Part shown: positions 41,706 through 64,000 of the stretch, piece by piece
How positions within the stretch are numbered: the first letter of the stretch is position 1
Layout: each line of letters starts with the position of its first letter
Origin: Muricea muricata
Taxonomy: Eukaryota; Cnidaria; Anthozoa; Malacalcyonacea; Plexauridae
Assembly: GCA_963855995.1 (NCBI GenBank)
Contig: OY979731.1
Coordinates: forward strand, 372,001 to 436,000
DNA length: 64,000 bases
Reading direction: 5' to 3'
Translations under genes and position numbers: made by a program
Notes under the pieces: generated by a model
Databases searched by the model: none
Told to the model about the DNA's origin: nothing
The model's input: the letters and a program-made list of their open reading frames with translations, nothing else

Positions 41706-41797
41706 TTATTACTCCGCCTGCCGTAGGCGAGGCGGAGTTTTAAATTCGCCCCGTTTCTGTTTTTTTTTTTTTTTTTTTTTTTTTTTCGGTGTCAGAA
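41706..41797. repeat. Inverted copy of the hairpin/A-rich element at 37973-38062
   Basis: ACTCCGCCTGCCGTAGGCGA hairpin, then GCCCCGTTTCTG, a run of about 27 T and CGGTGTC. It is the reverse complement of the 38.0 kb copy with a longer homopolymer. Confidence 0.65.
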
Positions 41798-41799
41798 GT

Positions 41800-43018
41800 C
41801 GGTGCAGCGCTCATGGGTGATACCGCTGGCACAAACCGCGTGAGCCGACCTAAACACGGTTTAAACTCAATTTCTAGCGAAATGTGTCAACAAAACACGC
41901 ATTTAAACGTGCATGCTAGAACATCTAAACCGCAAGAAGGTTTTACGTGCAAAGATTCTCATGCAAAATGCTTTAAAACGACAAATTCCAGCGATGTGTC
42001 GCGGTGAAGTTTTGAGAGCGTGTTTCCGTCATTTTCTGGTTTATTCCTACTTTTAAGGAAATTTAGAAATTTCTACACAAGAATCAAACGCAAATTCTAC
42101 TGAAATATCTACATACATACAAAATGAAGATCGGTGAAGGAACTTCGCAAAAATATTCATTTTTGTACTTTCGAACGGCGTTTTTCCTATGCTTTTGACT
42201 GAAAACACGACGAACGACACTTGCCAGAGCAATTTGCGTGGCGCGTGGAATGACGTGAGCACGGGGACACAAAAATTGAGGTTATTGAGTGCGAGTTCCC
42301 TATCTGTATATATCTGATCTGTGATACAGCTTCTTCTGAATCAGGAACAAGGAACTTGCTCGGAGCATGTCGACACAAAGTGGTAGTTTCGGCGTTCCTC
42401 GGAATTCGTCGGTTTCCGACGCTGCTCGAAGATTTTCCGAATACTATTTTTTCAAAATTTTTCTCTAGCTCGAAGATTTTGCTCCTTGAAAGTCCTCTAA
42501 ATTTTCATGCATCCTAACTTTGTTTTAAGGTAATATGCTTTATTTTCTATCATTATTTGTAGCAAAGTACTTAGATTGTGCATAGAGATCGATTTTTGAG
42601 AGATCAGACTGGAAATAAGTACAATTTTCGAGTATTGTAAGTTTGTGCTTTCCAAGCATGGCTATGGTCGCATGTAAGATTAAGGCTACCGTTTTCAGTT
42701 GAAGTTGGTTCGATAATAATACCATGAAATCCGCTATAGAAACTGAATGAGGTCTTGAATTGTTGAGATTGTCGAAGAAAGTATGCTGAGACAGTTCTAT
42801 GTATAGAGTTGGTTCTGGTTCAAATTTATTGAAAAAAGGCAATTTAATTTTAATTTTGTGAATTTCGATTACAAAACATGCCTTGGACTGTCGACCAATT
42901 GATTTCGTCAGGCGATTACAGACTTGTGAGAGGAGGGGGGTAGCCTAATTACTAAAATGTAGTGAAAAAAGGACTTTCCATCTAATGGTGGGAGCAGGTT
43001 GGCGGGAACACTGGAGAA
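41800..43018. other. No gene supported
   Basis: Short open frames occur (for example 41813-42007, and 42367-42471 starting MSTQSGSFGVPRN), without recognisable domains or splice partners. AT content is lower around 42150-42450, which could mark a promoter-like patch, but this is not established. Confidence 0.35.
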
Positions 43019-43020
43019 TA

Positions 43021-43451
43021 AAGGTCCTGTCACAATGCAATTTTTCTTGCAACTTGAAATGCAATTCTACTATTGGGAGATGTAAAATTGGCAAATGCAA
43101 GTTTCCATCACAGTTTGCTGGGGTTTTTTAACGTACCAAATGTTTGTCACAAATTTACTTAAGAGTAGATTTTCCCTGTAGCAAAAAAGATGGCAAATGT
43201 CGATTTTACCAGAGTGCATGGCAGTCTGAAATTGTTTAAAAAGGCAAATTAACGTCTTTTGAAGAACAGACAGAAGACAATAGGTTATTTTCACACTTGT
43301 GTTAAAATTTCAATCCAGTAGCTTTGCTTCTTGTCATCTTTTCCCACGTATTCTTTCTTGATACCTGCAATGCATTCTGGTAAAATCGACATGTCGCCAT
43401 CTTTTTTGCTACGGTGAATGCAAGGAAAAGTGCACCGTGTGACAGGGCCTT
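43021..43451. mobile_element. MITE with AAGGCCCTGTCACACGGTGC tips, carrying a nested MITE
   Basis: The left tip AAGGTCCTGTCACAATGCAA and the right tip (mirrored) AAGGCCCTGTCACACGGTGC enclose a second element at 43178-43412. A solo tip of the same family lies at 43491-43528. Confidence 0.75.
43178..43412. mobile_element. MITE with GTAGCAAAANAGATGG tips
   Basis: Inverted tips of about 45 bp (GTAGCAAAAAAGATGGCAAA; TCGATTTTACCAGA) flank AT-rich sequence. Homologous elements lie in both arms of the large palindrome, at 48873-49102 and 63729-63958. Confidence 0.8.
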
Positions 43452-46400
43452 AAGGGTAAGAGGTGGATAGAGAAGGAGACGGAGCAGTTACAAGTGCAAG
43501 AAAAATTGCACCGTGTGACAGGGCCTTGAGGGTGGGAGGTGGATAGGAGGAGACGGAGCAGGATGTGGGAGTCGTGCAAGGTCGGGATGTTAAAAAAGAA
43601 CAAGGAATGTTATGTTTTTAATGCCTTTTAGACTTTTCTTGAGGCAATTAAAATTCAAACTGTCAAATCCAAACACTGTACAGAATGGCCGACTTTACGT
43701 GGTCTTTAGTTTTTACACAACCACTTGCATTGTTATCTTTTGCAGTTTGTTTACCATTTCAGTTATCTATCTTCAATAGAATTCTTTGAAATTTGTTTGT
43801 AGATCGACAAAATGCTTAACCTCCTCTCAACAACTGGCAGATTATGAAAAATGAAATTGTTAAAGGTATTGGAATATTGCATGTACAATATTGAATATGG
43901 GACAATTTGGGACGGTATAATTTTGGACATGACGGTTTCATTCTCACCTAATTTGACGATTATTTTGTGGGTACACATACCGTGGAATCTCATGTGCTCC
44001 AGAAGCATTTTAATCTTAGAAAAAGTCAAATAATGATGAACTGTGTTTTAAAAGAAAGTTAGAATCTTATTTGGTTCAAATCAATTGAATTATGGCCCAA
44101 GAGTTCATGAAAACACATACAAAAGGCTTTCTTAAAAAACTGAAATATCAAATCTAGCAATTTTATATGTTATGCCTCTAAACAACACAATTCTGTTTCT
44201 AAAAATTGGTACCCTACTAGACCTATATGCATGATTATACTAATTTGGACATATTTATTTTTACCCATTAAAATATAAATTTGTGTTTAATCATTCGTGT
44301 TTGTCATTATTTGACTTTGTAATGTTGGTTAAACATAAGGAGATTGAGGTGACTTTGCCAGAAACAAAAACATCCATTATTATACTAAAATTTCAATATA
44401 TATAGCAATTAAAACTAACCACAGGAAATACATTTCTACTTTTTAATTGAAATGTTTCTGTTATATGCACTATATCATATTTTTGATAAAAAATTACAAC
44501 ACCTATGTTATTTCCTGGTTTACTATCTCAATCATCTTTTGTTTAAGCTGGCTTTGAGTGTTCATTTGAAAGTTTGGAAAGTTCATTTGAAAATCACAAT
44601 AGTTCTCAATGTTATATTGGACCCTTTAAAGTTAAAAAAATACTTTGTAATATTTTATACTACTGGTAATTTATCTTAGATACAGACTTTGTGATTTTGT
44701 ACTAGAATGTTGACTTTCAAACTTTAAGATGAACTACTTATTAAGGACAAAATAAGCTAGCATATTGTCTTTTGTTTACAAAGTGGAACTTGTTTGGAAT
44801 TGAGATGAACTGATGCAGTTGTTCTTTAACTTTATCAATTAATTACATATCTTAAATGAAAAAGAAAACCACAACTTGCCAAATAAATTCTGTGGGCTCT
44901 TTTTATTAGCAAAGAAAAGATGTGGCAGATGTAAGAATTTAAGAGTAAAAAAGTTTCCTTGGACTAAAAAAATTGACAGTATGCCAGATTTTCTAGATAA
45001 ACAAGCAGTACAGATGTTGGCCAATAATAAGTATAAGTAACTACAATTTTTAATTTTAAAAGTTTTCTATTGATGCCTGGATACAGTAAATACTTTACCA
45101 GAGTTCTTCGTATTACATCGACTTGAAAAAGTTTTAAGTCACATGAAGCTTTTAGTTGATACTATGCAATTTCAAATTTTACAGACTTCTTAATTAACAT
45201 GCCAAATTTACCTTGTTGAACATAAGGTCTTTCCTGAGAAAAAGTAAAACTGTCTGGCATTATATGGAGTAGAATAATTTAAATTAGTTTGAGACTTTGA
45301 TTTGATAACAATTTTGATTTGTACTATTTACAATACAAGTGACCGAGTTGTATCGGATATACAAACCCAAGCTGAAGGCGAGATATCTGACATACACAGA
45401 TGCGAATGTTGTAAATGGCTTGTGAAACTCGTCAATTTTATACATCAGATCTATAGCAAAGTGATTTTGAAAATACCGATTCTGTAAGATGAGAAAATGA
45501 TTTCTTTTGTGTTTCCTGTATGATTTATTACTTTATAAGTTTCTTAATTAAAATTACAACATATTGCCTACTGGAACTTTTTATATTGTTTGGTTGTGGT
45601 GAATTTGTATTTTGGCAATTGAAATATTTCTGAATTTGTATGTGCATTTCCTTTGCTTCAGTTCAAGTTTACATTTCAAATATTCCACTTTGTAATACTT
45701 GCGTGGTAATAATAATATAAGAAAACAGGTTTACATGGCTCTTGAATATAGTCTTTTCAACAAGTAAGTAAAGATGAATTTATACTTCAAAGAGATATGT
45801 TCCTAACCTGACAATGGTACCTTCCAAAAAGACTAAATTTAAATTGATTCTTCGAATAAATTTTTTACTTTTCAATCCAAGATCAATCTAAGTTATGTAT
45901 TTCTACTTTTATTTTGGTCTCTTTAACACTGAAACTATCAATTGTATATAAAGCAACTTCACTATCGAGTGACTTCATTAGTTGCTGGGCAAAGCCAAAG
46001 CATTGATTTTTCGGCTGTTTTCAATGAAAAATAGAATTTTGCCCAAAGTTATCTCAAATAAATTATCACAATTTGAACAAAAAGCTTCTGTTCTTGTGCC
46101 CACCAGAAAAATGAGATGTCTGAGACTTTCTTTGTATTTTTTTGCGAAAAATAGATCGCATGCACTGTTATGCAAAGAAAAGTGTAAGAGATTGGTTTCT
46201 GAAAAATGTCGTGCTACACACAATATTCTAAAAATGCTTGGTTTTTATTCTATGTATTTTTGAATTTTTTGTTAAAAAAAAATAAAGGTAGCAATGTTTA
46301 GTGCATTTCACATTGTCAGGTTAGAAACGCAATAAGAAAAATGTGGCTCCGAACATTACAGCTTGGTCAATTTGGAATTTATAAAAAAATCGTTTCTTCG

Positions 46401-46611
46401 TTGTTTTTCGACGTTTTGAAGGGTTGTTTCGAGTACAAAAAAGTATTTTTAGGAAGAATTATGTGCCCACGTTACATGTCTCAAAGCCATCAAAATTCGT
46501 TGGTAATTCGTGCATGTATTTTTTCTGACTTATAAAAGCACAATTGATTAAAAATAATATTTTTCTTTTGACAAAAATACCTTTCTTCTGTGAGGCTGGC
46601 TGTATTTGAAA

Positions 46612-46695
46612 AAGCGTTGGTCAACGCTCCGCCAAAACTCGTGGGTTTTCTCCGGGTACTCCGGTTCTTCCCACTGGGAGAGTTGACAGGGTAGT
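46612..46695 (+). repeat. SINE tail fragment
   Basis: GGTCAACGCTCCGCCAAAAC, then CTCGTGGGTTTTCTCCGGGT and ACTCCGGTTCTTCCCACTGG: the best-preserved copy of the shared SINE tail in this window. Confidence 0.65.
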
Positions 46696-47169
46696 TACAT
46701 ATGGTTATAAAAATGTGACTAACTTTTGAAAACCTTTCTACTTAGACTTGTTAAGCCTTCTCGTCATCTCTATCAGTTGCATGTTTTGAGCCACATGTTT
46801 TTCTTTGTAATTGTGAAACAACTCGTTATATGCTGGGTAAACCTTTGCAAAACTCTCAAAATTTATCACTTCAAGTTGTTTCATTGTTATAATATATTTT
46901 GAAGTATAAACATTTACTTACGTTGAAAAGACCCAAGTTTTTTAGGGCTTTGTTCATTCACTTGTGTTATTGTTCTCTCTGCCATGTTCTGTTTTCTTCT
47001 GTTGTTATTTTAATAAGTACAATGTGTGGTAGTTAATCTCTTTTTATTGTTATTCAAATTGTATGTAATCTTTACAAATTTTTTCAATAAATTGTTTACA
47101 AAATTTACTTGTGACCCCTTTTTAATTAAAAATTCAATTCCCATGGGAATTGAGAAATTGAATAAAAAA

Positions 47170-47297
47170 AATCCCCCTACCCCGGCCAGCTCCCCAAGTG
47201 CCACTTCCACCTAAGTAGAAGTACTTATACATGTAGTGCAAGTACTTCTACTTATTCACGGTGGAAGTAGCACTCGGAGAACTGGCCGGGGTAGCCG
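47170..47297. repeat. Hairpin/MITE
   Basis: CCCCGGCCAGCTCCCCAAGT and, mirrored, CCCCGGCCAGTTCTCCGAGT close a hairpin whose inner stem is AAGTAGAAGTACTT and its inverse. Loop of about 20 bp. Confidence 0.7.
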
Positions 47298-48128
47298 GCA
47301 AAGAGAAGACCAACTTTGCAAGTGCTAATACAATTGCTAAGTTGATCTTCCCTAGAGAGCAGCCGCGCGTACCTAACAAATTAAAACAACAAACGTTAGT
47401 GACTTAAGTACTTAGCATGCAAATTTGATTCCCAAAGCCAAAATGTCAAGTGCCCCCCGCTGATCCTACCAACTGCCTACCTGCCTCAGTTCTAAGCTGT
47501 CTTCCTCAGTTCTAAGCTCCTGCATTCCATTCGTTACCTTCACTTTCCTCACCATCGCACAGTCACTCACAGCTGATAAACCCGCATGCACCACCACCAC
47601 CCCGACTGCCACCCAATTTCGAAAATTAAAAGAGTTAAAATTTCGGTAAAGTATGCATTTTAAATGCAATTTATTTGGATATTTTAGATCAAACGTAAAC
47701 AGAAAAAGCTCGTACATAAAAACAGGTGAGAATTCTATTTAAAATTTGCTTGCAAAATATAAAACTTAATTCGCATTTTTCTTAGTTAATAGTATAGATC
47801 AATTTAGTTGATGTTGAAACCTACTCTTAACTGTTTTGTTAGAAGTGACGACAGATTTTGGTTTTTAAGCATACTTTCAAAAATTTTAATTCCTTTAATA
47901 AACCTAACCCCATGCAACTTACACACGGCGCACACCCTCGCAGTCCATACATTTAGCTAATAAATTACGTTATAAACAAAAAAGCAAAATAAAAAGATAA
48001 ATTACGTTATCTCTAGCTACTTAAACCCACTTAGACTGAGTTTTTGATTGAATTTTCAAACGTAAAACCTTAGCTGAATGGGCATGGGCTTTTCGTTGTG
48101 TTAACTGTTCCGGAGTAAATATAAACCT

Positions 48129-48370
48129 GGGGCCGGTTGTATCAAAGGCGTTTAGCTTAAACGGTGGATAAGTGAAATTTAAAAATCAGTTTTACACCTA
48201 GTACGGAACCGAAATTATGAGTTGAAATAGAATAAATATTTAGTTTTATATATAATTGTTCTTCTCAGGTCAAATAACTTCAGCTGGTTTGTTTATACAA
48301 CATGGAAACGTGTTTCATATTTTTGACTTATCCACCGTTTAAGCTAAACGCCTTTGATACAACCGGCCCC
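48129..48370. mobile_element. MITE, GGGGCCGGTTGTATC terminal-repeat family
   Basis: Inverted ends of about 45 bp (GGGGCCGGTTGTATCAAAGG; TTTAGCTTAAACGGTGGATA), related to 1003-1233, where the same TTTAGC-TAAACGGTGGA block follows the tip. Confidence 0.8.
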
Positions 48371-48872
48371 TGATACTTACCAAAGTCCAAGGCTGGGTCA
48401 AATAAGCATGAGAATTAGGCAAAAATAAAAAGCAATTGAAACTCAACAGATTCACTAAAGTTGTTTTTTTTTTTTGGCAACTTATATCCTTAAGTGTAGA
48501 TGACATGCAATTTTTAATGCCGTAATTCTCACACTTATTTAACCGAAACGCCTTCATTTGCATGGTACCTCGCAGCTGCTCTCAAACCACCTTCGTAATT
48601 TGCTTTAGTGTACACAAACAATGACTTCATTGTTCCTGCTTACCAAAACAAATCTGAAAGCACCAAGATACTTATCATATTAATAATCAAAGAGGATTGC
48701 ATTATGCAGTAATTACCATAAACAGACGCATCACCATTGAAACAAAGCATGCCGTATTCCCATGGGAATTTAAAATGCACAAAAAAATATAATGATCCTA
48801 CTGATTTGCATGGATGTATGAACCAAATTAGCTAAGAAACAAAGAAATGATATATTCCCTTGGGAATTTAAT

Positions 48873-49102
48873 GTAGCAAAAAGATGGCGGGTGTTGATTT
48901 TACCAGAATGCCTTGCGGTCTGAAATCGTTTAAAAACTTAAGGTAAATTAACCTCGTTTGAGGAACAGACAGATAGGTTATTTTGTCACTTGTGTTAAAA
49001 TTCCGTCCATTAGCTTATCTTAAATATCATTTCACTGCTATTCTTGATTGATACCCGCATTAAATTCTGGTAAAATCGACATGCCACCATCTGTTTTGCT
49101 AC
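48873..49102. mobile_element. MITE with GTAGCAAAANAGATGG tips (mirror 63729-63958)
   Basis: Same family as 43178-43412. The inverted tips and the core (GAACAGACAGATAGGTTATT) are conserved. It is present once in each palindrome arm. Confidence 0.8.
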
Positions 49103-49369
49103 GGTGAATTGGAATACAAGTCACATTTTGTCGCTTTTTAACCAGAGAACACATTCTTTAAAGGTAGAACGACGGAATTGATCGTTTGCAATCGACGCCA
49201 TCTTTGTTGACGTTTGAAACACATGGCAACCACAAAGTATCTATTCATTATATCTGATCCTATCGAGCCATACATCTTTAAAGTATCATTCATAATACGC
49301 TAAAACTAACGATGAAATAGTAAATTGACACAAGTGTTTCGCTGTAAACAGCTGAAGTAATCTGCAGAG

Positions 49370-50029
49370 TCAACCAAGATGGCGCCCAATCACACGAAAT
49401 GACGTCATGTGCAAACCAAGAATAGTGACAAAATGCATCAACATTATTACGAAACTTATTTTTGTAAAACGTTCAATCCTACATGTTATTTTGTTTTGTT
49501 TTTAGAAATATCCAAATCCAAATGTTAGAGACGAAATTTCCAGGCGTTAAGGTATTGTTTCTTTAAAAAATATTGTCGACATTTACCATATTTTTACCTG
49601 TTTTTTGACTCGAAAATTGACTGCCAAACTCCTAGATATTCTATTTAATTATTTTGTTGAATGTATTTGATATCAATGTTATTTCAATCCAATTTTTTTC
49701 ACTTAATTTGCTGTCTTTTCTTTTTCATTAACGAGAAATATCTATTAAATCCTCTTTGATCCCTCAATAATAAGTATCTTGTTTTCTACTAACTTGCACA
49801 TTACCACTACTTTCTATTACAATGTCGTGTCTTCTTATTCTTGTGGATTGTTGTTTTGTGGGTCTTGCCGTCCAGGATCGTTCATTCTTTTCTCTTCTTG
49901 TGCGTTTTTTTCACATCCCATCACCCTTTGCAATAGTAGAAAGAATTAAGTCATGAGATGATAGTTACGAATAATTTATAAACTATAACATGATAAGTTT
50001 CTTGTACGTTTGCATGGTGAATACAATAT
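49370..50029. other. Arm segment without recognisable features (mirror 62802-63461)
   Basis: AT-rich. CCAAGATGGCGCCCAATCAC at about 49374 is a CpG-containing motif of the kind found near promoters. No exon was identified. Confidence 0.35.
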
Positions 50030-50031
50030 AC

Positions 50032-50114
50032 TTATTAAGCTTTGTGGAAACACCACGTAAATTTATTATTGCAATAATAAATTTACGTGGTGTTTCCACA
50101 AAGCTTAATAAGTA
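50032..50114. repeat. Perfect short hairpin (mirror 62717-62799)
   Basis: ACTTATTAAGCTTTGTGGAA runs to a centre at TTATTGCAATAA and back without a mismatch, about 41 bp per arm. Confidence 0.85.
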
Positions 50115-50134
50115 AACTATAACATATTAAGCAC

Positions 50135-50272
50135 TTATTGGATGAGGTTTTTGTGATATGCGAAATGATCAATGTCGAGGTAAGAGTTATCAGCCGAGCC
50201 GAAGGCGAGTCAGATAACTCTTACCAAGACATTGATAATTTTGCATATCACAAAAACCGAATCCGATAATTG
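50135..50272. mobile_element. Palindromic MITE (mirror 62559-62696)
   Basis: Tips ATTGGATGAGGTTTTTGTGA and, mirrored, ATTATCGGATTCGGTTTTTG. The centre has GAGTTATC and GCCGAGCCGAAGGC. Few mismatches between arms. Confidence 0.75.
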
Positions 50273-50477
50273 CTTTATTATACATTGTAAGTCTTTTTCC
50301 TCGAGCAATTGACGAATTTCGCCTTCGGAAGAGCTTAAAAAGCAAGATGCCATAACATGAAACAGAAAATATCGAAAAAATGTTGTTGCCATGCCAACCA
50401 TTGATGCCAACGAATACCGCATACTGTAATAATCTGCACCGTAGGCTCAACATGCAGATAACTCAGTTATCTGCTAG

Positions 50478-50729
50478 CAGATAACTGAGCCATAGAATAA
50501 GAATACATAGAAGGGCCACTCGCGTCGGAGCCTTTGGAGTTTTTGAAGCCGCGCATGTCGCATTACGCACGTTATTAGCATTTTCTCAGCCAGTCAATTG
50601 CATTTTCTGGCCAATAGGAATGCTGAACTGGCTGGTGGCAGCCAGTAAACTGCATAAACATAGTGTGACATGTTGCACTGCTGAGTGGCCCTTCTATGTA
50701 TTCTTATTGTATGACTGAGTTATCTGCAG
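50478..50729. mobile_element. MITE with CAGATAACTGAG tips (mirror 62102-62353)
   Basis: Inverted ends share AGAATACATAGAAGGGCCAC. The core includes GCATTTTCTCAGCCAGTCAA and an inverted CCAGTTCAGC. Just outside the left end, CAGATAACTCAGTTATCTGC forms a second small palindrome. Confidence 0.75.
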
Positions 50730-50807
50730 ATTGTGTGATAGTCGCATTTATCTGCATACAACTGACCAATCACAACGCATAAAACAACTGCAATGTATAG
50801 TAATTAA

Positions 50808-51176
50808 CACTTATTGACTGAGACCGAGGGAAACAGTATGTTTTGTGGACCAGAGACTGTCGATGTCGAGGGTCCACAAAACATACTGCTTTCCCGAGGT
50901 CTCAGTCAATAAGTATTTTATTATATACTGAGTGCCAAAAGAGAAGAAAAGTACCACAAATCAATCAAACATGTGTAAAAAGGATTACCTTTTACCTGAC
51001 ATGGCTACGTGAGGCTTTGTGGATTTGTTGTCTACCGGTGAATAAAAGTAATGTCCACCGCTTAGCTACGTTGCCAGGGAGACAAAAGAATTTCTCCACT
51101 ATCACGTGATACGTTCTTAACCAATAAGAAACAGGAATAAATGAACTTTGACACTCAGTATATTATAAAATAGTAT
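50808..51176. mobile_element. Compound hairpin MITE (mirror 61655-62023)
   Basis: A hairpin at 50812-50920 (CTTATTGACTGAGACC; CAGTATGTTTTGTGGACC and inverses) is joined to a segment whose ends are TATTATATACTGAGTG and, mirrored, TATAATATACTGAGTG near 51170. Confidence 0.65.
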
Positions 51177-52108
51177 TAATTAGGCCGGCCAAATTATTGT
51201 GTAAGCTGTTAATATGAAATTTTTTTATTAAAATCTCGAGAATCATTAATAAATCGTGAGCAAAACACAAAAGAAAATCATAGCCGTGAAGGAGTCTTTA
51301 TTTCTCACACGCACACAACTTGCAGCTACCCTAATTTATGAATTTAGATTAAAATATCTCGAGAATTAAACAACACGTAAGGAATGTGTAAATTCTTAAA
51401 GCTCTTTCGAACAATAAAAATTAATATCTCGCACTAATCTCTCTCAAAAGCTCTCTCAAATTTATTGCCGATATCTCTTTGAGAATTACTGTGCACGTGA
51501 AATGTAACTTATATCAAAACTAGCTTACTTCAAGCTGTTTGGGAATCAAGATTTTACGTGTCAACGAGATCAAATATGAATCTAAGATGGCAGACAGCGC
51601 ATTAAATTTCTATCTTTACGACCAACTCCCCAACGAAAGGCTTTAATTCGCTCGAAAGTCGAATTTTGTTTTTTTTTTATTGTTTCAGGTAGTGAAAGAT
51701 CCTGTGTGCTTTTTACAGTACTACCGACACTAGCAACGTTAGTGCGAGATGTTAATTTTTATTGAAACAAAAGCTGAACTGCTAAAAAAATGGAAACGAC
51801 AAGATAAAATAAAAAAACTTACTTTCACTCTATCTTTGGATCTTCTTGGCTTCGGTTGTTCTCGTTTCATCATGCTGTTTATGGTTTCATCTGGTTGGCG
51901 CACTCTCTTCATGGAGCATCAAGGCGGTCCAGTAGGTAACTAGCTCACTCGTGTCCAGTCAACCAACATAAAATAAGGAGAAAATTAATGTTACAAAATA
52001 TTTTAGAATATAGGACACTAAGCTTTAATTGAATTGACTTTAACAAACCGTACATTGTGATAGTATTTGCATCTTAACATCTGATGGAGACGGCTTGTGA
52101 TTTACTTC

Positions 52109-52468
52109 TTATGTCGATATGAATTCTTTCCCATCTTGTTGCATCATTAGTTGATGGTTGTTGTATTCACTTTTTACTTGGCATTCTTTGAAAAAAAAAT
52201 TACGATGTTCAGAAAACTGTTTACAAGATAAGCAAAGAAAACTACGTTCACAAGCATTAGAGAGGACTAAGTAATTATAATAGGCGTGACAGGTCACAGA
52301 GGTTAGTCGACGAAGAAACTCATGGACAAATTCCCGGCATGATGATACCCCGATAGCAAGAAATACAGCAAGTGTAGAACGTGTACGTGTGAGCTTAAAC
52401 TGTATGTATGCAGCTCCAAGAAAAGCGCAACACAAAATGGCGGAATTTAAAGACATTTCTGGTGTCAT
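52109..52468 (-). CDS. Unassigned 119-residue open frame in the left arm (mirror 60363-60722)
   Basis: From the first ATG it starts MTPEMSLNSAILCCAFLGAA; a hydrophobic stretch at residues 6-22 could be a signal or membrane segment. It continues with Cys pairs (SFLCLSCKQF) and basic residues. Both arms keep it open and apparently identical. A TATA-like AATATATAAATATA lies about 35 bp upstream of the ATG. A decayed relative at 39.7 kb has an early stop. No family recognised; it might be one exon of a longer gene or chance. Confidence 0.3.
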   Translation of the reverse strand: MTPEMSLNSAILCCAFLGAAYIQFKLTRTRSTLAVFLAIGVSSCREFVHEFLRRLTSVTCHAYYNYLVLSNACERSFLCLSCKQFSEHRNFFFKECQVKSEYNNHQLMMQQDGKEFIST

Positions 52469-52918
52469 TTCCAGTTCCCTAACTTTCGCGGACAAATATA
52501 TTTATATATTTTTCTCAAATTTTTTTGAAGTAAATCTAGATGGATTTTGTGAATAAACAAATTGAAAAAAGTATTGCCCACGTTAGGAAACTAGAACGGG
52601 CGCCCAAGAATGCCCACAATTTCTCCAATCTGGATTATATTTATTGATTGCGCAAATGACTGATAAAAAATAAGAGAGTAATAAAATACCAAATGGTTTC
52701 CTCTTCAAGATAGTGTCATACATGCGCGCGGCATTTCGGGATATTTGGGAAAACTCGTGTTGAAGTTGAACCTAAGGCAACATGCCAAGTACATGGATGA
52801 CGCTATCCTGCTCAGGAAACTATTTAGTAATTGTCTTACAAAATGATTACAGTGAAACACAAGTCAACGCCACGGCATTTAAATTTCTCGTGTAGGATTG
52901 TTTGATCCTGCACAGTAA

Positions 52919-53095
52919 TAGCCAAGTGGCGCAATCGTCAGAGCAAACGCCTATCACATGTGAGGTCGTGGGTTCAATCCTTACTTCAGACTCGTGACAC
53001 CCATGTGAGGAGTTAGTCAGTCGTGGGTTTATCCCGGGTACTCCGGTTTGCGAATGTTGACTGGATGGTTAAAATTGTAAAATATCAGTAATCAC
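52919..53095 (+). repeat. SINE, tRNA-like head and conserved tail (mirror 59736-59912)
   Basis: TAGCCAAGTGGCGCAATCG resembles an A-box region and GTGGGTTCAATCC a B box. The shared tail CCGGGTACTCCGGTTTGCGA follows. It is the most complete SINE copy of the window. Confidence 0.7.
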
Positions 53096-54293
53096 CGGAA
53101 CACGGGTACTTAACTAAACTGCTGACGATGAGGCGGAACTCATAATGAATTAATGAAAATGTGTTTCACTGTAGTTATCATATAATGTAATTGCCAAGCT
53201 GAATGAATAATTCTCCAGTAACTACGTCATATGAATAATTTACAATTATGAGAGTAGTGGGAGGGGGGGGCAGCATAAAGATTGAAGTAGTGTCAAGGAA
53301 GGGGTACTACCCTGACGGGTACTAGGCGAAGAAGTAGAGTAAACAGGAGGAAGAAAATTAAATTGGAGTAAATAAGGGGGATTGGGGTAAAGAAGGGGAG
53401 AAGCAGGATAAAGAAACCAGTGGAAGGGGGTGCTATCCTGGAAGGAGTACCCGGGAAAGAAGAGGGTGAACAGGAGGAAAAGTAGATTGGAGTACAGAAA
53501 GGGGAAATTAAACGGATCAGGAAATTCAGACTTGCAATTCAAATGAAAGGCAGCTCATTGGTCATGTAAACACTCGTTAAATCATGGTTCTCGCTTGCCT
53601 TTAGCTTGGAATCATCTTTGAATTTGAACTGAAAGTCTGAATTTGCATGTTTCTTGTATAGAGTGCAGTGTATCAGAACAGAAGAGGTTTTGAAGAAAAA
53701 GAAAGAAAGAATAAAAGTAAGTTAAAATTTGTAAAGAATAATGAAGAAACTATTGGTACAGCACTTGATACATGATGATAATCATCATTATAAACTCTCT
53801 ATTAATCCGGGGGGGGGGGGTATAATAGAGAATTTGCAATGATAGTAAGTATATTGTAATATTTGGGTTTTTACCACTAAATCCTCTTGAAAGTTCTTTT
53901 TGGCTGTGGCTTCTCTCATCACAGTTGTCTGTGCTTGTCTTGCAAAATCTCTGGAATATCTATAACGTGAAGGTCAATATTTAAGATTAGAAAAATAGAA
54001 ACCGTAAAATAGAAAGAAATTTAAATCGTGGCGAATACTTTTTACGGTCTTGCTGGCATGACAAAAAGAGAGTATAGATTTATAAGATCATGTTGATTTA
54101 TCCTTTATCTGAACTATATTTAACTTAGATTTTAAAATAGATTTCACCCTGGTAAGCAGACCGAATGGGTTTTCAAACAAGATAACATTTAATGACTAAA
54201 ACGTGCACAGAATAGTTAGAGAATGCTTACATGTCGAATAAAAATCCAATACTTTTAATGTCCAACTACACAATAGCGATTTTCGTTGCATTT

Positions 54294-54434
54294 CTAGACT
54301 GGAGAAGAAGACGACGCCATTTTGATTTTGATTTCTCCCGATAACGGCAGATTTGTCTTCGCAATTTTTTTCCATTTCTTCGTCGTTTCAGCTCCAATTT
54401 GCTCGTTGTGTTTCTTTCGTACCTTCCTCGCCAT
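54294..54434 (-). CDS. Small basic 46-residue open frame, left arm (mirror 58397-58537)
   Basis: ATG to TAG, starting MARKVRKKHNEQIGAETTKK and ending MASSSSPV, rich in Lys/Arg. A TATA-like GTATAAATG lies 20-30 bp upstream. The difference between arms in this stretch changes a Leu codon silently. Not recognised; it could be a first exon. Confidence 0.3.
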   Translation of the reverse strand: MARKVRKKHNEQIGAETTKKWKKIAKTNLPLSGEIKIKMASSSSPV

Positions 54435-54819
54435 TTCCGTACAACCAATGAACATTTATACTCAAGATTAAGACTGTATTGAGACTTTCAAAATGTTCGT
54501 CAGGAGACATAAAAATCGAAGCTTCTTCTTCGGGTTGCAGAAGCAAATGACGTCAGACGACCTTTGTCCGCCAGCAAATACCCGTATGTATAACATTCAA
54601 TGATCTTTTTAGGAAGCTGAAAATCGGTTTTTATTGCGCGAACGAAGTGTTTTTGCCATTATTTCTTACTCAGGTCTTTCTTCTGCTACTTTACTTCATG
54701 TTTACTTAGGTAACTTGCCAAAAGAAACGCCTGTAAGGGACAATTTTGCAATTTTTTTTATTTGGATGCTGATGAACAAGGGAAGACTCGTTAAAGCTTT
54801 CATTGGCAAATATCTTTCC

Positions 54820-54960
54820 CTCCGTGGCCGAGAGGTAAAGACAACTGTCTTGACTTCGATTTTGGGTGGATCGAGGACCGGCCCAGTTCAACTGAGTTTG
54901 GTAAGAATTTAATTCTGATCGGTGCTCGATCCACCCAAAACTGAATTCAAAGCTGGGCGT
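54820..54960. repeat. Inverted tRNA-like block (mirror 57871-58011)
   Basis: CTCCGTGGCCGAGAGGTAAA resembles the D-arm region of a class II (Leu/Ser-type) tRNA. GATTTTGGGTGGATCGAG is mirrored by CTCGATCCACCCAAAACTGA at about 54928. No full cloverleaf. Confidence 0.4.
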
Positions 54961-55082
54961 GAAGTGCAGGAAAACACTAGGCAGTACCGCGAGGCCAAGG
55001 AGGCAAACGTTATTTTCCTAGTGTTGTTAACTAATATTTAAGCAAATTTCATTAACTTGACTGTTGGGGACAGACCTGTAGG

Positions 55083-55240
55083 GTTGGTGCATTGAAGACT
55101 TCTCGTCGTTATTTCCCTTCGTTCAAGAAGACAAGTTGTCTTCATCGAGAAATAACGACGAAAAGACTTCAAGACACCACTAAACCACTACACTTTAAAG
55201 CTACAGTGTAGTGGTTTAGCTAGCTAAACCACTACACTGT
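55083..55240. repeat. Two adjacent hairpins (mirror 57591-57748)
   Basis: Hairpin 1 pairs GAAGACTTCTCGTCGTTATTT with its inverse. Hairpin 2 is a repeated CTAAACCACTACACTGTAGC motif on both strands around the perfect TTTAGCTAGCTAAA. Confidence 0.7.
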
Positions 55241-56140
55241 GCCAATAATATATGGCTGACTTCTTCCTAACGCTTACGGTACGACCATGGATGCGCAAAG
55301 ATGCGCAAACACATTAAAGCCTTGAAAGCAAGTGTTTTCTTTTAGGAAAGAATCAAGGACGACAACGCTTACTAAATCAAAGCCGTCTAGTCATGTTTTA
55401 AGTACTTCAGCTGTTTAACGATCTTTTACCAGATCTTTGCAAGAGGAAAAGTAAAATTTTGCATCATTATTATTAACTTTCCGTCAGTCGTTTCTTTCTT
55501 GATCGAGCATTATATGCCATTGTTTTCAGTGTCCTTGATATAGGAGCCATATACTTATGGCCTTGGGTTTAATTCCCAAACACTGAATGGCAGTGTTTTG
55601 CTCTTCCAATGAGATAACAAGATGGCACTGTAGAACGCGTGGTTTTATATAAGCTACGAGCGTCAAGATATCCTTGATAGGTAACTATTGATCCTACAAT
55701 GGCACTTATGTTCACTGCCAATAGGAACGTTTTCAACTCACAGCTTGTACATAATGGCTTTTATAGGTTGTGTCACAAGGAAACTGCAGTTCGGTCGTAA
55801 AATCAACTTGTTTTCAAGGTTGCCGGGTTTTAAACATTACTGACACTGTTAATGTTGTAGCTCGGAATTGTAAAACAACGGCGGCAATGCAGTTTTCTTG
55901 TGCCATAACCTGTAAAATGGGTGGTTTTATCATTTATATAAGCTACGACCGCCAAGCTTTATCCTTGATAGGAAACAATTGATCCCACCAACGACATTTG
56001 TATTCTCTACCGATAGGAACGTTTGAGACTTACAGCTTGTACATAACGCATTTTATCGGTGAGTCGTAAAACCAACCTGTTACTGCTCAGCAAACTACCA
56101 GTTCCCTCGATCAACGATAGTCGATGAAGCTTGGCGCTCG

Positions 56141-56715
56141 TAGGTAGTGTAAAACCAAGCATTTTACAGGTTATAGCCAGGTTAGCAGTATCTGCAATGT
56201 TTCAAAGCAACCACGAATAGAAACTGACAGCCAACGTTCTGAGTTAAGGTTTGTAGAATATACTACATGATTAGTTACAGCATGACCAGGCATATAGTAA
56301 ATAACGCATTGCCATCTTGTTCCAAAGTTATCTTATTACTTGAAAGAGCTGAAGACTGCCATGCAGTGTTTGGGAATCAAACCCAAGGCCATAAATACAT
56401 GACTCCTATATCAAGGACACTGACAACAATGACATATAAAGCTCGATCAAGAAAGAAACGACCGACGGAAAGTCAATAGTATATGCAAACTTCGACTTTC
56501 CTTCTTGCAAAGGCCTGGTCATAAAAGATCGTTAAACATAGCTGAGCAACTTAAAACATGCCTACACAGTTTTGATTTAATAAGCGTTATCGTCTTTGAC
56601 TCTTTCCCGAAAGAAGACATATTCTTTACAGGCTGTACAGTGTTTGCGCATCTATGCTTCATGCCTTCTTGAAAAGACCTCGCCATAAAAGATCGTTTAA
56701 CTTAGCTGAACAACT
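56141..56715. repeat. Central spacer of the large palindrome, diverged tandem copy of the inner right arm
   Basis: Stretches at 56300-56470 and 56500-56670 resemble 57200-57550 in the same orientation (AACCCAAGGCCATAA, TATCAAGGACACTGA, GATCGTTAAACA) with clear divergence. The spacer is therefore older than the arm duplication. Confidence 0.65.
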
Positions 56716-58396
56716 CGAGCGCCAAGCTTCATCGACTATCGTTGATCGAGGGAACTGGTAGTTTGCTGAGCAGTAACAGGTTGGTTTTACGACTCACCGA
56801 TAAAATGCGTTATGTACAAGCTGTAAGTCTCAAACGTTCCTATCGGTAGAGAATACAAATGTCGTTGGTGGGATCAATTCTTTCCTATCAAGGATAAAGC
56901 TTGGCGGTCGTAGCTTATATGGTTATGGCACAAGAAAACTGCATTGCCGCCGTTGTTTTACAATTCCGAGCTACAACATTAACAGTGTCAGTAATGTTTA
57001 AAACCCGGCAACCTTGAAAACAAGTTGATTTTACGACCGAACTGCAGTTTCCTTGTGACACAACCTATAAAAGCCATTATGTACAAGCTGTGAGTTGAAA
57101 ACGTTCCTATTGGCAGTGAACATAAGTGCCATTGTAGGATCAATAGTTACCTATCAAGGATATCTTGACGCTCGTAGCTTATATAAAACCACGCGTTCTA
57201 CAGTGCCATCTTGTTATCTCATTGGAAGAGCAAAACACTGCCATTCAGTGGTTGGGAATTAAACCCAAGGCCATAAGTATATGGCTCCTATATCAAGGAC
57301 ACTGAAAACAATGGCATATAATGCTCGATCAAGAAAGAAACGACTGACGGAAAGTTAATAATAATGATGCAAAATTTTACTTTTCCTCTTGCAAAGATCT
57401 GGTAAAAGATCGTTAAACAGCTGAAGTACTTAAAACATGACTAGACGGCTTTGATTTAGTAAGCGTTGTCGTCCTTGATTCTTTCCTAAAAGAAAACACT
57501 TGCTTTCAAGGCTTTAATGTGTTTGCGCATCTTTGCGCATCCATGGTCGTACCGTAAGCGTTAGGAAGAAGTCAGCCATATATTATTGGCACAGTGTAGT
57601 GGTTTAGCTAGCTAAACCACTACACTGTAGCTTTAAAGTGTAGTGGTTTAGTGGTGTCTTGAAGTCTTTTCGTCGTTATTTCTCGATGAAGACAACTTGT
57701 CTTCTTGAACGAAGGGAAATAACGACGAGAAGTCTTCAATGCACCAACCCTACAGGTCTGTCCCCAACAGTCAAGTTAATGAAATTTGCTTAAATATTAG
57801 TTAACAACACTAGGAAAATAACGTTTGCCTCCTTGGCCTCGCGGTACTGCCTAGTGTTTTCCTGCACTTCACGCCCAGCTTTGAATTCAGTTTTGGGTGG
57901 ATCGAGCACCGATCAGAATTAAATTCTTACCAAACTCAGTTGAACTGGACCGGTCCTCGATCCACCCAAAATCGAAGTCAAGACAGTTGTCTTTACCTCT
58001 CGGCCACGGAGGGAAAGATATTTGCCAATGAAAGCTTTAACGAGTCTTCCCTTGTTCATCAGCATCCAAATAAAAAAAATTGCAAAATTGTCCCTTACAG
58101 GCGTTTCTTTTGGCAAGTTACCTAAGTAAACATGAAGTAAAGTAGCAGAAGAAAGACCTGAGTAAGAAATAATGGCAAAAACACTTCGTTCGCGCAATAA
58201 AAACCGATTTTCAGCTTCCTAAAAAGATCATTGAATGTTATACATACGGGTATTTGCTGGCGGACAAAGGTCGTCTGACGTCATTTGCTTCTGCAACCCG
58301 AAGAAGAAGCTTCGATTTTTATGTCTCCTGACGAACATTTTGAAAGTCTCAATACAGTCTTAATCTTGAGTATAAATGTCCATTGGTTGTACGGAA

Positions 58397-58537
58397 ATGG
58401 CGAGGAAGGTACGAAAGAAACACAACGAGCAAATTGGAGCTGAAACGACGAAGAAATGGAAAAAAATTGCGAAGACAAATCTGCCGTTGTCGGGAGAAAT
58501 CAAAATCAAAATGGCGTCGTCTTCTTCTCCAGTCTAG
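58397..58537 (+). CDS. Small basic 46-residue open frame, right arm (mirror of 54294-54434)
   Basis: Same reading as the left-arm copy, with TTG where the left arm has TTA for a Leu. A strongly basic product would be expected if it is translated. No family assignment. Confidence 0.3.
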   Translation: MARKVRKKHNEQIGAETTKKWKKIAKTNLPLSGEIKIKMASSSSPV

Positions 58538-60362
58538 AAATGCAACGAAAATCGCTATTGTGTAGTTGGACATTAAAAGTATTGGATTTTTATTCGACAT
58601 GTAAGCATTCTCTAACTATTCTGTGCACGTTTTAGTCATTAAATGTTATCTTGTTTGAAAACCCATTCGGTCTGCTTACCAGGGTGAAATCTATTTTAAA
58701 ATCTAAGTTAAATATAGTTCAGATAAAGGATAAATCAACATGATCTTATAAATCTATACTCTCTTTTTGTCATGCCAGCAAGACCGTAAAAAGTATTCGC
58801 CACGATTTAAATTTCTTTCTATTTTACGGTTTCTATTTTTCTAATCTTAAATATTGACCTTCACGTTATAGATATTCCAGAGATTTTGCAAGACAAGCAC
58901 AGACAACTGTGATGAGAGAAGCCACAGCCAAAAAGAACTTTCAAGAGGATTTAGTGGTAAAAACCCAAATATTACAATATACTTACTATCATTGCAAATT
59001 CTCTATTATACCCCCCCCCCGGATTAATAGAGAGTTTATAATGATGATTATCATCATGTATCAAGTGCTGTACCAATAGTTTCTTCATTATTCTTTACAA
59101 ATTTTAACTTACTTTTATTCTTTCTTTCTTTTTCTTCAAAACCTCTTCTGTTCTGATACACTGCACTCTATACAAGAAACATGCAAATTCAGACTTTCAG
59201 TTCAAATTCAAAGATGATTCCAAGCTAAAGGCAAGCGAGAACCATGATTTAACGAGTGTTTACATGACCAATGAGCTGCCTTTCATTTGAATTGCAAGTC
59301 TGAATTTCCTGATCCGTTTAATTTCCCCTTTCTGTACTCCAATCTACTTTTCCTCCTGTTCACCCTCTTCTTTCCCGGGTACTCCTTCCAGGATAGCACC
59401 CCCTTCCACTGGTTTCTTTATCCTGCTTCTCCCCTTCTTTACCCCAATCCCCCTTATTTACTCCAATTTAATTTTCTTCCTCCTGTTTACTCTACTTCTT
59501 CGCCTAGTACCCGTCAGGGTAGTACCCCTTCCTTGACACTACTTCAATCTTTATGCTGCCCCCCCCCCTCCCACTACTCTCATAATTGTAAATTATTCAT
59601 ATGACGTAGTTACTGGAGAATTATTCATTCAGCTTGGCAATTACATTATATGATAACTACAGTGAAACACATTTTCATTAATTCATTATGAGTTCCGCCT
59701 CATCGTCAGCAGTTTAGTTAAGTACCCGTGTTCCGGTGATTACTGATATTTTACAATTTTAACCATCCAGTCAACATTCGCAAACCGGAGTACCCGGGAT
59801 AAACCCACGACTGACTAACTCCTCACATGGGTGTCACGAGTCTGAAGTAAGGATTGAACCCACGACCTCACATGTGATAGGCGTTTGCTCTGACGATTGC
59901 GCCACTTGGCTATTACTGTGCAGGATCAAACAATCCTACACGAGAAATTTAAATGCCGTGGCGTTGACTTGTGTTTCACTGTAATCATTTTGTAAGACAA
60001 TTACTAAATAGTTTCCTGAGCAGGATAGCGTCATCCATGTACTTGGCATGTTGCCTTAGGTTCAACTTCAACACGAGTTTTCCCAAATATCCCGAAATGC
60101 CGCGCGCATGTATGACACTATCTTGAAGAGGAAACCATTTGGTATTTTATTACTCTCTTATTTTTTATCAGTCATTTGCGCAATCAATAAATATAATCCA
60201 GATTGGAGAAATTGTGGGCATTCTTGGGCGCCCGTTCTAGTTTCCTAACGTGGGCAATACTTTTTTCAATTTGTTTATTCACAAAATCCATCTAGATTTA
60301 CTTCAAAAAAATTTGAGAAAAATATATAAATATATTTGTCCGCGAAAGTTAGGGAACTGGAA

Positions 60363-60722
60363 ATGACACCAGAAATGTCTTTAAATTCCGCCATTTTGTG
60401 TTGCGCTTTTCTTGGAGCTGCATACATACAGTTTAAGCTCACACGTACACGTTCTACACTTGCTGTATTTCTTGCTATCGGGGTATCATCATGCCGGGAA
60501 TTTGTCCATGAGTTTCTTCGTCGACTAACCTCTGTGACCTGTCACGCCTATTATAATTACTTAGTCCTCTCTAATGCTTGTGAACGTAGTTTTCTTTGCT
60601 TATCTTGTAAACAGTTTTCTGAACATCGTAATTTTTTTTTCAAAGAATGCCAAGTAAAAAGTGAATACAACAACCATCAACTAATGATGCAACAAGATGG
60701 GAAAGAATTCATATCGACATAA
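60363..60722 (+). CDS. Unassigned 119-residue open frame in the right arm (mirror of 52109-52468)
   Basis: Exact inverted counterpart of the left-arm frame with the same TATA-like upstream sequence at about 60321-60334. It ends at TAA 60722 after KEFIST. Not recognised. Conservation between arms proves little, because the whole arm is nearly identical. Confidence 0.3.
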   Translation: MTPEMSLNSAILCCAFLGAAYIQFKLTRTRSTLAVFLAIGVSSCREFVHEFLRRLTSVTCHAYYNYLVLSNACERSFLCLSCKQFSEHRNFFFKECQVKSEYNNHQLMMQQDGKEFIST

Positions 60723-63700
60723 GAAGTAAATCACAAGCCGTCTCCATCAGATGTTAAGATGCAAATACTATCACAATGTACGGTTTGTTAAAGTCAATTC
60801 AATTAAAGCTTAGTGTCCTATATTCTAAAATATTTTGTAACATTAATTTTCTCCTTATTTTATGTTGGTTGACTGGACACGAGTGAGCTAGTTACCTACT
60901 GGACCGCCTTGATGCTCCATGAAGAGAGTGCGCCAACCAGATGAAACCATAAACAGCATGATGAAACGAGAACAACCGAAGCCAAGAAGATCCAAAGATA
61001 GAGTGAAAGTAAGTTTTTTTATTTTATCTTGTCGTTTCCATTTTTTTAGCAGTTCAGCTTTTGTTTCAATAAAAATTAACATCTCGCACTAACGTTGCTA
61101 GTGTCGGTAGTACTGTAAAAAGCACACAGGATCTTTCACTACCTGAAACAATAAAAAAAAAACAAAATTCGACTTTCGAGCGAATTAAAGCCTTTCGTTG
61201 GGGAGTTGGTCGTAAAGATAGAAATTTAATGCGCTGTCTGCCATCTTAGATTCATATTTGATCTCGTTGACACGTAAAATCTTGATTCCCAAACAGCTTG
61301 AAGTAAGCTAGTTTTGATATAAGTTACATTTCACGTGCACAGTAATTCTCAAAGAGATATCGGCAATAAATTTGAGAGAGCTTTTGAGAGAGATTAGTGC
61401 GAGATATTAATTTTTATTGTTCGAAAGAGCTTTAAGAATTTACACATTCCTTACGTGTTGTTTAATTCTCGAGATATTTTAATCTAAATTCATAAATTAG
61501 GGTAGCTGCAAGTTGTGTGCGTGTGAGAAATAAAGACTCCTTCACGGCTATGATTTTCTTTTGTGTTTTGCTCACGATTTATTAATGATTCTCGAGATTT
61601 TAATAAAAAAATTTCATATTAACAGCTTACACAATAATTTGGCCGGCCTAATTAATACTATTTTATAATATACTGAGTGTCAAAGTTCATTTATTCCTGT
61701 TTCTTATTGGTTAAGAACGTATCACGTGATAGTGGAGAAATTCTATTGTCTCCCTGGCAACGTAGCTAAGCGGTGGACATTACTTTTATTCACCGGTAGA
61801 CAACAAATCCACAAAGCCTCACGTAGCCATGTCAGGTAAAAGGTAATCCTTTTTACACATGTTTGATTGATTTGTGGTACTTTTCTTCTCTTTTGGCACT
61901 CAGTATATAATAAAATACTTATTGACTGAGACCTCGGGAAAGCAGTATGTTTTGTGGACCCTCGACATCGACAGTCTCTGGTCCACAAAACATACTGTTT
62001 CCCTCGGTCTCAGTCAATAAGTGTTAATTACTATACATTGCAGTTGTTTTATGCGTTGTGATTGGTCAGTTGTATGCAGATAAATGCGACTATCACACAA
62101 TCTGCAGATAACTCAGTCATACAATAAGAATACATAGAAGGGCCACTCAGCAGTGCAACATGTCACACTATGTTTATGCAGTTTACTGGCTGCCACCAGC
62201 CAGTTCAGCATTCCTATTGGCCAGAAAATGCAATTGACTGGCTGAGAAAATGCTAATAACGTGCGTAATGCGACATGCGCGGCTTCAAAAACTCCAAAGG
62301 CTCCGACGCGAGTGGCCCTTCTATGTATTCTTATTCTATGGCTCAGTTATCTGCTAGCAGATAACTGAGTTATCTGCATGTTGAGCCTACGGTGCAGATT
62401 ATTACAGTATGCGGTATTCGTTGGCATCAATGGTTGGCATGGCAACAACATTTTTTCGATATTTTCTGTTTCATGTTATGGCATCTTGCTTTTTAAGCTC
62501 TTCCGAAGGCGAAATTCGTCAATTGCTCGAGGAAAAAGACTTACAATGTATAATAAAGCAATTATCGGATTCGGTTTTTGTGATATGCAAAATTATCAAT
62601 GTCTTGGTAAGAGTTATCTGACTCGCCTTCGGCTCGGCTGATAACTCTTACCTCGACATTGATCATTTCGCATATCACAAAAACCTCATCCAATAAGTGC
62701 TTAATATGTTATAGTTTACTTATTAAGCTTTGTGGAAACACCACGTAAATTTATTATTGCAATAATAAATTTACGTGGTGTTTCCACAAAGCTTAATAAG
62801 TATATTGTATTCACCATGCAAACGTACAAGAAACTTATCATGTTATAGTTTATAAATTATTCGTAACTATCATCTCATGACTTAATTCTTTCTACTATTG
62901 CAAAGGGTGATGGGATGTGAAAAAAACGCACAAGAAGAGAAAAGAATGAACGATCCTGGACGGCAAGACCCACAAAACAACAATCCACAAGAATAAGAAG
63001 ACACGACATTGTAATAGAAAGTAGTGGTAATGTGCAAGTTAGTAGAAAACAAGATACTTATTATTGAGGGATCAAAGAGGATTTAATAGATATTTCTCGT
63101 TAATGAAAAAGAAAAGACAGCAAATTAAGTGAAAAAAATTGGATTGAAATAACATTGATATCAAATACATTCAACAAAATAATTAAATAGAATATCTAGG
63201 AGTTTGGCAGTCAATTTTCGAGTCAAAAAACAGGTAAAAATATGGTAAATGTCGACAATATTTTTTAAAGAAACAATACCTTAACGCCTGGAAATTTCGT
63301 CTCTAACATTTGGATTTGGATATTTCTAAAAACAAAACAAAATAACATGTAGGATTGAACGTTTTACAAAAATAAGTTTCGTAATAATGTTGATGCATTT
63401 TGTCACTATTCTTGGTTTGCACATGACGTCATTTCGTGTGATTGGGCGCCATCTTGGTTGACTCTGCAGATTGCTTCAGCTGTTTACAGCGAAACACTTG
63501 TGTCAATTTACTATTTCATCGTTAGTTTTAGCGTATTATGAATGATACTTTAAAGATGTATGGCTCGATAGGATCAGATATAATGAATAGATACTTTGTG
63601 GTTGCCATGTGTTTCAAACGTCAACAAAGATGGCGTCGATTGCAAACGATCAATTCCGTCGTTCTACCTTTAAAGAATGTGTTCTCTGGTTAAAAAGCGA

Positions 63701-64000
63701 CAAAATGTGACTTGTATTCCAATTCACCGTAGCAAAACAGATGGTGGCATGTCGATTTTACCAGAATTTAATGCGGGTATCAATCAAGAATAGCAGTGAA
63801 ATGATATTTAAGATAAGCTAATGGACGGAATTTTAACACAAGTGACAAAATAACCTATCTGTCTGTTCCTCAAACGAGGTTAATTTACCTTAAGTTTTTA
63901 AACGATTTCAGACCGCAAGGCATTCTGGTAAAATCAACACCCGCCATCTTTTTGCTACATTAAATTCCCAAGGGAATATATCATTTCTTTGTTTCTTAGC

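Follow-up and report, generated by a model that had tools for sequence, protein, structure and literature searches.

A long palindrome in the Muricea muricata genome is probably one copy of a dispersed, apparently non-coding mobile element with Helitron2-like ends

We analyzed a stretch of 64,000 nucleotides of the Muricea muricata genome (assembly GCA_963855995.1, contig OY979731.1, positions 372,001 to 436,000 of the forward strand), here called the window, which contains 0 N and lies at C16:372001-436000 in our contig naming of the 453-Mb, 74-contig assembly. Its last part is occupied by a palindrome of two near-identical arms around a short spacer. This palindrome is in all probability one copy of a mobile element of about 30,000 bases that is apparently non-coding, young and amplified, and whose arms recombine with each other. 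The parts of the palindrome within the window are as follows.

39554 to 56140, plus strand: left arm of the window-copy palindrome, including 2.15 kb (39554 to 41707) outside the element's usual end.
42833 to 56140, plus strand: common arm, 13.3 kb in the window copy, with no recognisable coding sequence.
55911 to 55935, plus strand: 25-bp heterology between the arms, found on the side of spacer position 1 in eight of nine copies and in both arms of the ninth (C11b).
56141 to 56715, no strand: spacer of 575 bp, present in all nine centres compared (574 to 575 bp aligned, 99.1 to 100% identity) in either orientation.
56716 to 64000, minus strand: right arm, continuing past the window (BLAST, base-by-base alignment and contig extension).

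Comparison of the window with itself by BLAST gave 48831 to 55910 against 64000 to 56921 as the longest piece (7082 columns, 99.859%). Base-by-base alignment of 48831 to 56140 with 56716 to 64000 showed identity in 7276 of 7312 columns, the differences being seven substitutions, two 2-base indels in G runs and one 25-bp indel, and the inner 205 bp of the arms are 99.5% identical. This confirms the original prediction, made from the window alone, of two near-identical mirror arms of at least 7.3 kb that run off its end. The real extent is larger: the window ends inside the right arm, and with the next 16 kb of the contig added, 39554 to 55910 pairs with 56921 to 73286 in window numbering (16,369 columns, 99.798%), which gives a palindrome of 33.7 kb in total whose right side reaches C16:445286. 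Position 48831, previously taken as the start, is merely the mirror of the window end, and the actual start is 39554. The constant coordinate sum of 112,831 reported for the arms holds for most of their length but is off by 2 in the stretch bounded by the two G-run indels and by 25 close to the centre. A chance origin is excluded by length and identity. Two perfect palindromes lie inside the arm (86 bp at 50029 to 50114 and 38 bp at 55203 to 55240) and are probably small non-autonomous repeats.

The palindrome is not unique. A 40-base piece of the spacer has 261 exact copies in the genome, markers for two arm types, alpha and beta, have 317 and 198, and a pattern across the junction between the arm and an outer element, B, has 159; reversed-pattern controls gave 0 in each case. 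These counts are of exact matches, and true numbers may be higher. The alpha and beta markers add up to 515, near twice the number of spacers. A genome search with 48831 to 50831 yielded 40 full-query matches at 99 to 100% (40 scored of 5369 candidates), of which 18 are paired in inverted orientation, giving nine pairs with a spacing of about 13.2 kb on contigs C4, C5, C6, C8, C11 and C16. The search for the same arm elsewhere in the genome was thus positive, and a unique, recent palindrome is ruled out by the 261 spacer copies.

For nine copies, the outer 9.5 to 10 kb were read on both sides; full arms were read in the window copy, and 1.8 kb around the spacer in eight copies, with the centre of the window copy as the ninth. 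An outer arm of about 6.7 kb, running inward from the equivalent of window position 42833 (in one case from 43130 only), is common to the 18 arms fetched. Two of the nine copies are truncated, at one side or at both. Outward of the common arm lies one of two ends, A or B, and the commonest order is a 5' end (A), an alpha arm, the spacer, a beta arm and B, a complete 1.9-kb element with a 3' end. The features of the window copy to which the following sections refer are listed here.

41711 to 41738, plus strand: A end, a 5'-type terminus of 28 bp with a 12-base asymmetric terminal inverted repeat (ATIR) in a hairpin and ATT before it; exact 28-mer match.
41711 to 42832, plus strand: A segment, of which about 409 bp resemble the 5' part of B (88%), followed by about 715 bp found in A-type arms only.
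49992 to 50125, plus strand: alpha-only segment of 134 bp containing the 86-bp perfect palindrome, absent from three beta arms read.
52787 to 53019, plus strand: arm-internal repeat that is a paralogous empty site for the insertion at C4:5537750-5567944 (78% over 238 columns).
37765 to 38061, minus strand: separate short member of the same terminus family, 297 bp, outside the palindrome, with its 5' end at 38061 and both ends present.

The A end is reached about 1125 bp outward of 42833 and terminates at ATT followed by ACTCCGCCTGCCGTAGGCGAGGCGGAGT. The break falls at the same base in nine arms with seven distinct flanking sequences, the window arm included. The B end, seen in five arms, extends 1925 bp outward of the common arm to AACAAGACGCCTGCTAAGGCGTTCACTCCGCCTGCC (read inward). 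B is complete in that it has both kinds of terminus around a central array of about 31-bp repeats, and its 36-base outer 3' end has 579 exact copies in the genome (control 0). The 297-bp element in the window matches this 36-bp 3' end and the 28-bp 5' end exactly. Three copies with A on one side and B on the other measure 30,207, 30,195 and 31,117 bp, and the window copy measures 29,416 bp from A to A; A stands on both sides in three of the nine fetched copies, namely the window copy, C6 and C11a. The A and B boundaries fall at the same base beside different flanks, which speaks against spread by segmental duplication. A set of nested inverted repeats, nearly perfect (98.6% over 500 bp), borders the A end of the window copy at 40450 to 41676. 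Related repeats lie beside other copies or serve as their targets (C11a, C11b), a hint that the element prefers palindromic short repeats.

The description of Helitron2 elements in PMC3627910 places an ATIR 0 to 2 bp from the 5' end, where it forms a 5' hairpin, and has them insert into T-rich sites, in most of the families described there without and in some with a target-site duplication; the termini of Helentrons and of the related HINEs are described in PMC4067079. Here, the 5' end follows TT with ACTCCGCCTGCC, and the ATIR lies at the terminus inside a DNA hairpin of -12.8 kcal/mol (z -5.35; 0 of 200 shuffles as stable). ATT precedes the 5' end in eight of nine arms. The 3' ATIR, GGCAGGCGGAGT, lies at a distance of 24 bp from the 3' end and is followed by a 6-bp stem, as in the Helitron2 layout.

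Insertion sites were assessed by joining the two flanks of a copy (400 bases, junction at position 200) for four insertions, C5, C4a, C11b and C11a. The joined flanks of C11b match a locus, L013, at 93.3% over positions 147 to 400 (254 bp) with no gaps, a clear paralogous empty site. Those of C4a (C4:5537750-5567944) match the arm-internal repeat of the window at 78% over positions 154 to 376 (238 columns), ungapped at the junction. Overall, the joined flanks of copies with an A and a B end align across the junction in three of three cases (C5 weakly), compared with none of one for copies with A on both sides, and inspection by eye showed no target-site duplication beside any of the four copies. 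As far as sequence can tell, ends and insertion sites together support membership in Helitron2. The expectation of a non-autonomous mobile element is likewise supported by the 261 exact spacer copies, the shared ends and the empty sites, two clear and one weak.

The likeness to the Helitron2/Helentron and HINE/DINE-1 elements, as they are described in PMC3627910 and PMC4067079, lies in the 5' ATIR within a terminal hairpin, the 3' ATIR that precedes a short stem and lies about 24 bp from the 3' end, the T-rich 5' junction with no duplication seen, and the central tandem array of B, as present in some HINEs. The element differs from these descriptions in its size of about 30 kb, with a giant palindrome as cargo, and in the many palindrome copies with A at either side or with no exact B junction. 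Its behaviour is likely that of a Helitron which has captured a palindrome. In the full-text literature searched, subscription papers being outside that scope, no such palindromic Helitron was seen.

The palindrome appears to carry no genes. There is no stop-to-stop frame of at least 150 amino acids in the arms or spacer, and 18 of the 60 frames of at least 60 amino acids between 41000 and 56716 (mostly the longest) gave no Pfam match over the cut-off (best E 0.024). As a control, the open reading frame (ORF) at 6114 to 6899 of the same window matches two NUP210 domains above the Pfam cut-off. The start codon near 42367 (MSTQSG...) opens no ORF of note. Protein-coding cargo was rejected on these 18 ORFs, which leaves room for spliced genes with small exons. 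Because none of the tested frames matched Pfam, the element is treated as non-autonomous. The Helitron Rep-like domain PF14214 itself is present in the genome, with 150 matches scored of 352 candidates, 105 of the 150 on C1.

The two arms of a copy are often distinguishable. The alpha-only segment has a 12-bp direct repeat, AAACTATAACAT, at 49980 and 50114. Three copies whose partner arm was absent from the 40 matches (C13, C11c and C14) all have that arm at the expected place, and it is of beta type. Along about 1.54 kb, alpha and beta differ by 27 to 31 substitutions in addition to the 134-bp segment missing from beta, whereas betas differ among themselves by 7 to 11 and alphas of different copies by 1 to 5. 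Since alpha and beta are further apart than alphas across copies, a palindrome with distinguishable arms predates the spread of the copies, and the very recent formation proposed earlier proved wrong. In C13, a 550-bp stretch of the outer part has changes common to both arms, which means that an arm is not of one type from end to end.

Arm types were assigned around 80 spacers on C3 to C7 (C7 to 9.59 Mb). Alpha stands left and beta right of the spacer in 46 copies and the reverse in 4; 21 copies are alpha/alpha, 2 are beta/beta and 7 are incompletely typed. Among the 73 fully typed copies, 50 therefore carry both types, and the hypothesis that arms are as a rule re-made at every transposition was rejected on this count. 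The ratio of alpha/alpha to beta/beta copies is 21:2 (two-sided binomial P = 7e-5, presuming independent events). Nine of 161 arm markers in this range have no exact spacer.

In a tree of 18 arms (5651 columns), both arms form their own clade in seven of nine copies, and the four arms of C4a and C4b form one further clade. Arms differ at 0 to 10 positions within a copy and at 8 to 24 between copies, mutual comparisons of the C4 twins aside, and when the 18 arms were paired at random, the within-copy total observed was reached in 0 of 100,000 trials. No variable column among the 18 arms separates A-side from B-side arms across copies. A 31-bp deletion is present in both arms of C4b and in neither arm of its twin C4a. 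The A-side arm of C4b has no B-side alleles at outer columns 22, 508 and 1339 and carries B-side alleles at inner columns and at a 1-bp indel. This switch indicates that, once the duplication had taken place, the B-side arm was the template for a tract that begins somewhere between columns 1339 and 2258. C4a and the copy at C4:5603251-5618453 lie about 42 kb apart and, together with their flanks, are inverted duplicates, possibly from a segmental duplication seeded by the palindrome.

Furthermore, the placement of B relative to the spacer depends on arm type. Exactly one B junction was found in 51 of the 80 copies and two in 2, and 55 of 57 B junctions listed for this range are linked to a spacer. 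In the 46 copies with alpha left and beta right, B lies right of the spacer (beta side) in 27, left (alpha side) in 5, on both sides in 2 and on neither in 12; in the 21 alpha/alpha copies, it lies right in 6, left in 8 and on neither side in 7 (27:5 versus 6:8, Fisher P = 0.010). As B is on the beta side in 27 of the 34 copies of the first group that have a B junction, the commonest unit is A-alpha-spacer-beta-B. Centre orientation is mostly fixed in alpha/beta copies and scrambled in alpha/alpha copies. Homogenised copies have thus lost the link between centre and end, which is what arm-to-arm recombination would produce if it brought about conversion and inversion alike. Arm-to-arm gene conversion, which the original prediction had offered as one possibility, is supported by the per-copy clades, the C4b mosaic, the alpha/alpha copies and the scrambled centres.

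In the window copy, the palindrome extends 2.15 kb past the A end, and in C6 the arms and at least 1.3 kb of flank are 99.945% identical; both copies carry an A end at either side. It would seem that arm copying can continue beyond the element and overwrite the opposite flank, and an assembly error at these two loci could give the same picture.

The explanation that we favor, and hold to be probable, is a non-coding transposon of about 30 kb with a palindrome body of 27 kb, which arose by Helitron2-like read-through and was then modified by arm conversion and centre inversion. We infer its way of moving from the structure of the copies. The source locus would have been an older palindrome whose arms, alpha and beta, differed slightly. 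It would have carried a Helitron2-like 5' end (A) on one side, and the small, complete element B would have integrated into the opposite arm. A RepHel enzyme acting in trans may have driven rolling-circle transposition that began at A, passed through the whole palindrome and stopped at the 3' end of B, a read-through capture that would give daughter copies with both arms. After insertion, homologous recombination between the arms would convert beta to alpha, rarely the reverse, and would flip the centre and sometimes copy flanking host DNA to the other side. Read-through capture is described for Helraiser in PMC4778049; the likeness would be that a 5' end is paired with the 3' end of a downstream element and the DNA between is mobilised, and the difference from that description is that the DNA captured here can pair with itself over 13 kb and that the unit was amplified to hundreds of copies.

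Several observations weigh against this explanation. A on both sides and the missing B junctions (27 of the 80 copies have no exact one) are not directly explained by a 5'/3' model. The 3' hairpin alone is no better than chance (z -1.46; 22 of 200 shuffles as stable). The empty site of C5 is weak, its joined flanks matching L017 at 72.8% over positions 2 to 225 with 21 gap columns and extending 20 to 25 bp past the junction, and those of C11a, the one copy with A on both sides that was tried, gave no match crossing the junction. None of the 12 Rep-domain loci that were fetched, 3.5 kb apiece and all of them from C1, carries the element ends. In the arm tree, the C11b clade has a support of 0.758, and one C11b arm is 8 differences from the C8 and C16b arms and 9 from its own partner. 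The nine copies of this tree were chosen with both arms among the 40 best matches, which favors alpha/alpha copies.

A variant compatible with the favored explanation, to which we give a minor share of belief, is that alpha/alpha copies arise at birth: a single-stranded intermediate would fold, one arm would be re-copied, and resolution of the hairpin would invert the centre. A strand self-complementary over 13 kb is expected to fold, and both the scrambled centres of alpha/alpha copies and the low arm differences (0 to 10 per about 5640 columns in nine sampled copies) fit such an event. The 50 of 73 typed copies with both arm types speak against it, as does the C4b mosaic, in which conversion followed a segmental duplication. 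Equally tentative is the idea that the 27-kb palindrome moves as a single strand by rolling circle, with the 13-kb hairpin fold driving arm homogenisation and centre inversion at insertion and inverted 5' ends (A on both sides) serving as terminators. If so, the palindrome would be re-made or re-set when jumping.

A classical foldback transposon, moving by cut and paste with the arms as long terminal inverted repeats (TIRs) and the A ends as true termini, is improbable. Foldback elements such as FB and Galileo share with this family long inverted arms, non-coding copies and a link with inversions, and the three copies with A on both sides, as well as two alpha/beta copies that are A-type at the 42833 junction on both sides, have the form expected if the arms reach the termini. 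For foldback and other long-TIR transposons a target-site duplication is expected, whereas the two clear empty sites of A/B copies have none, nor has C11a, a copy with A on both sides and unlike flanks. Moreover, an exact B junction is single in 51 of the 53 copies that have any, the terminal segments of A/B copies (1.1 and 1.9 kb) are unlike each other so that long repeats do not reach both termini, and no transposase-like ORF was present among the 18 tested. The foldback class suggested by the original prediction is therefore not supported: the commonest unit is asymmetric, with two unlike ends of Helitron2 layout.

Spread by segmental duplication or ectopic recombination instead of transposition is still harder to credit. 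It would account for the inverted C4a/C4b duplication with its flanks and for the palindromic flanks of the window and C6 copies, but A and B boundaries at the same base beside different flanks oppose it, and the two clear empty sites make it unlikely. Large palindromes are classic assembly artefacts, and single loci could still be wrong, but read-through of both strands or a graph turn-back has next to no credibility for the family and was rejected given real arm differences (a 25-bp indel and seven substitutions) and 261 dispersed copies, most of the typed ones having two distinguishable arms in phase.

Breakage or loss is the expected fate of long palindromes, and arm conversion is usually studied at a few sex-chromosome loci. 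The element shares with the ampliconic palindromes of sex chromosomes, as described in PMC7023750 for willow and, by way of comparison, the human Y, near-identical arms around a spacer and arm-to-arm conversion. Compared with that description, it differs in being mobile and multi-copy, in that conversion can be read across many insertions, and in that no genes were recognised in the arms (18 of 60 ORFs tested). With about 260 insertions that have marked arms, centre and ends, the rate and direction of conversion, centre inversion and spread into flanks can be read by counting, which makes the element a natural experiment on the evolution of a normally unstable DNA shape. It also raises the question of how a Helitron-type enzyme copies a strand self-complementary over 13 kb.

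A further question is why contigs C1 and C2 hold no listed spacer copies. In contig order, the first two spacer places listed are on C3, none is on C1 or C2, and the rest are on C4 onward. C1, C2 and C3 make up at least 55% of the genome (sizes being lower bounds from match positions), and the distribution has a probability of about 1e-87 under random placement. Unlike the spacer, the 36-base 3' end is present on C1 and C2. A largest-gap test for a centromere-like stretch free of element copies gave P = 0.0008 on one of four contigs and 0.07 to 0.14 on the others, with one contig size guessed.

The window also contains other repeats. A second inverted repeat at 13817 to 20899 has arms that are 95.7% identical over 1.4 kb, with two head-to-head arrays of a 127-bp satellite inside. 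In a third, at 33060 to 36281, arrays of a 21-bp satellite flank AT-rich short repeats. Finally, a 114-bp tandem repeat forms several short arrays in both orientations at 4347 to 5897, 22344 to 24800 and 31712 to 32342.

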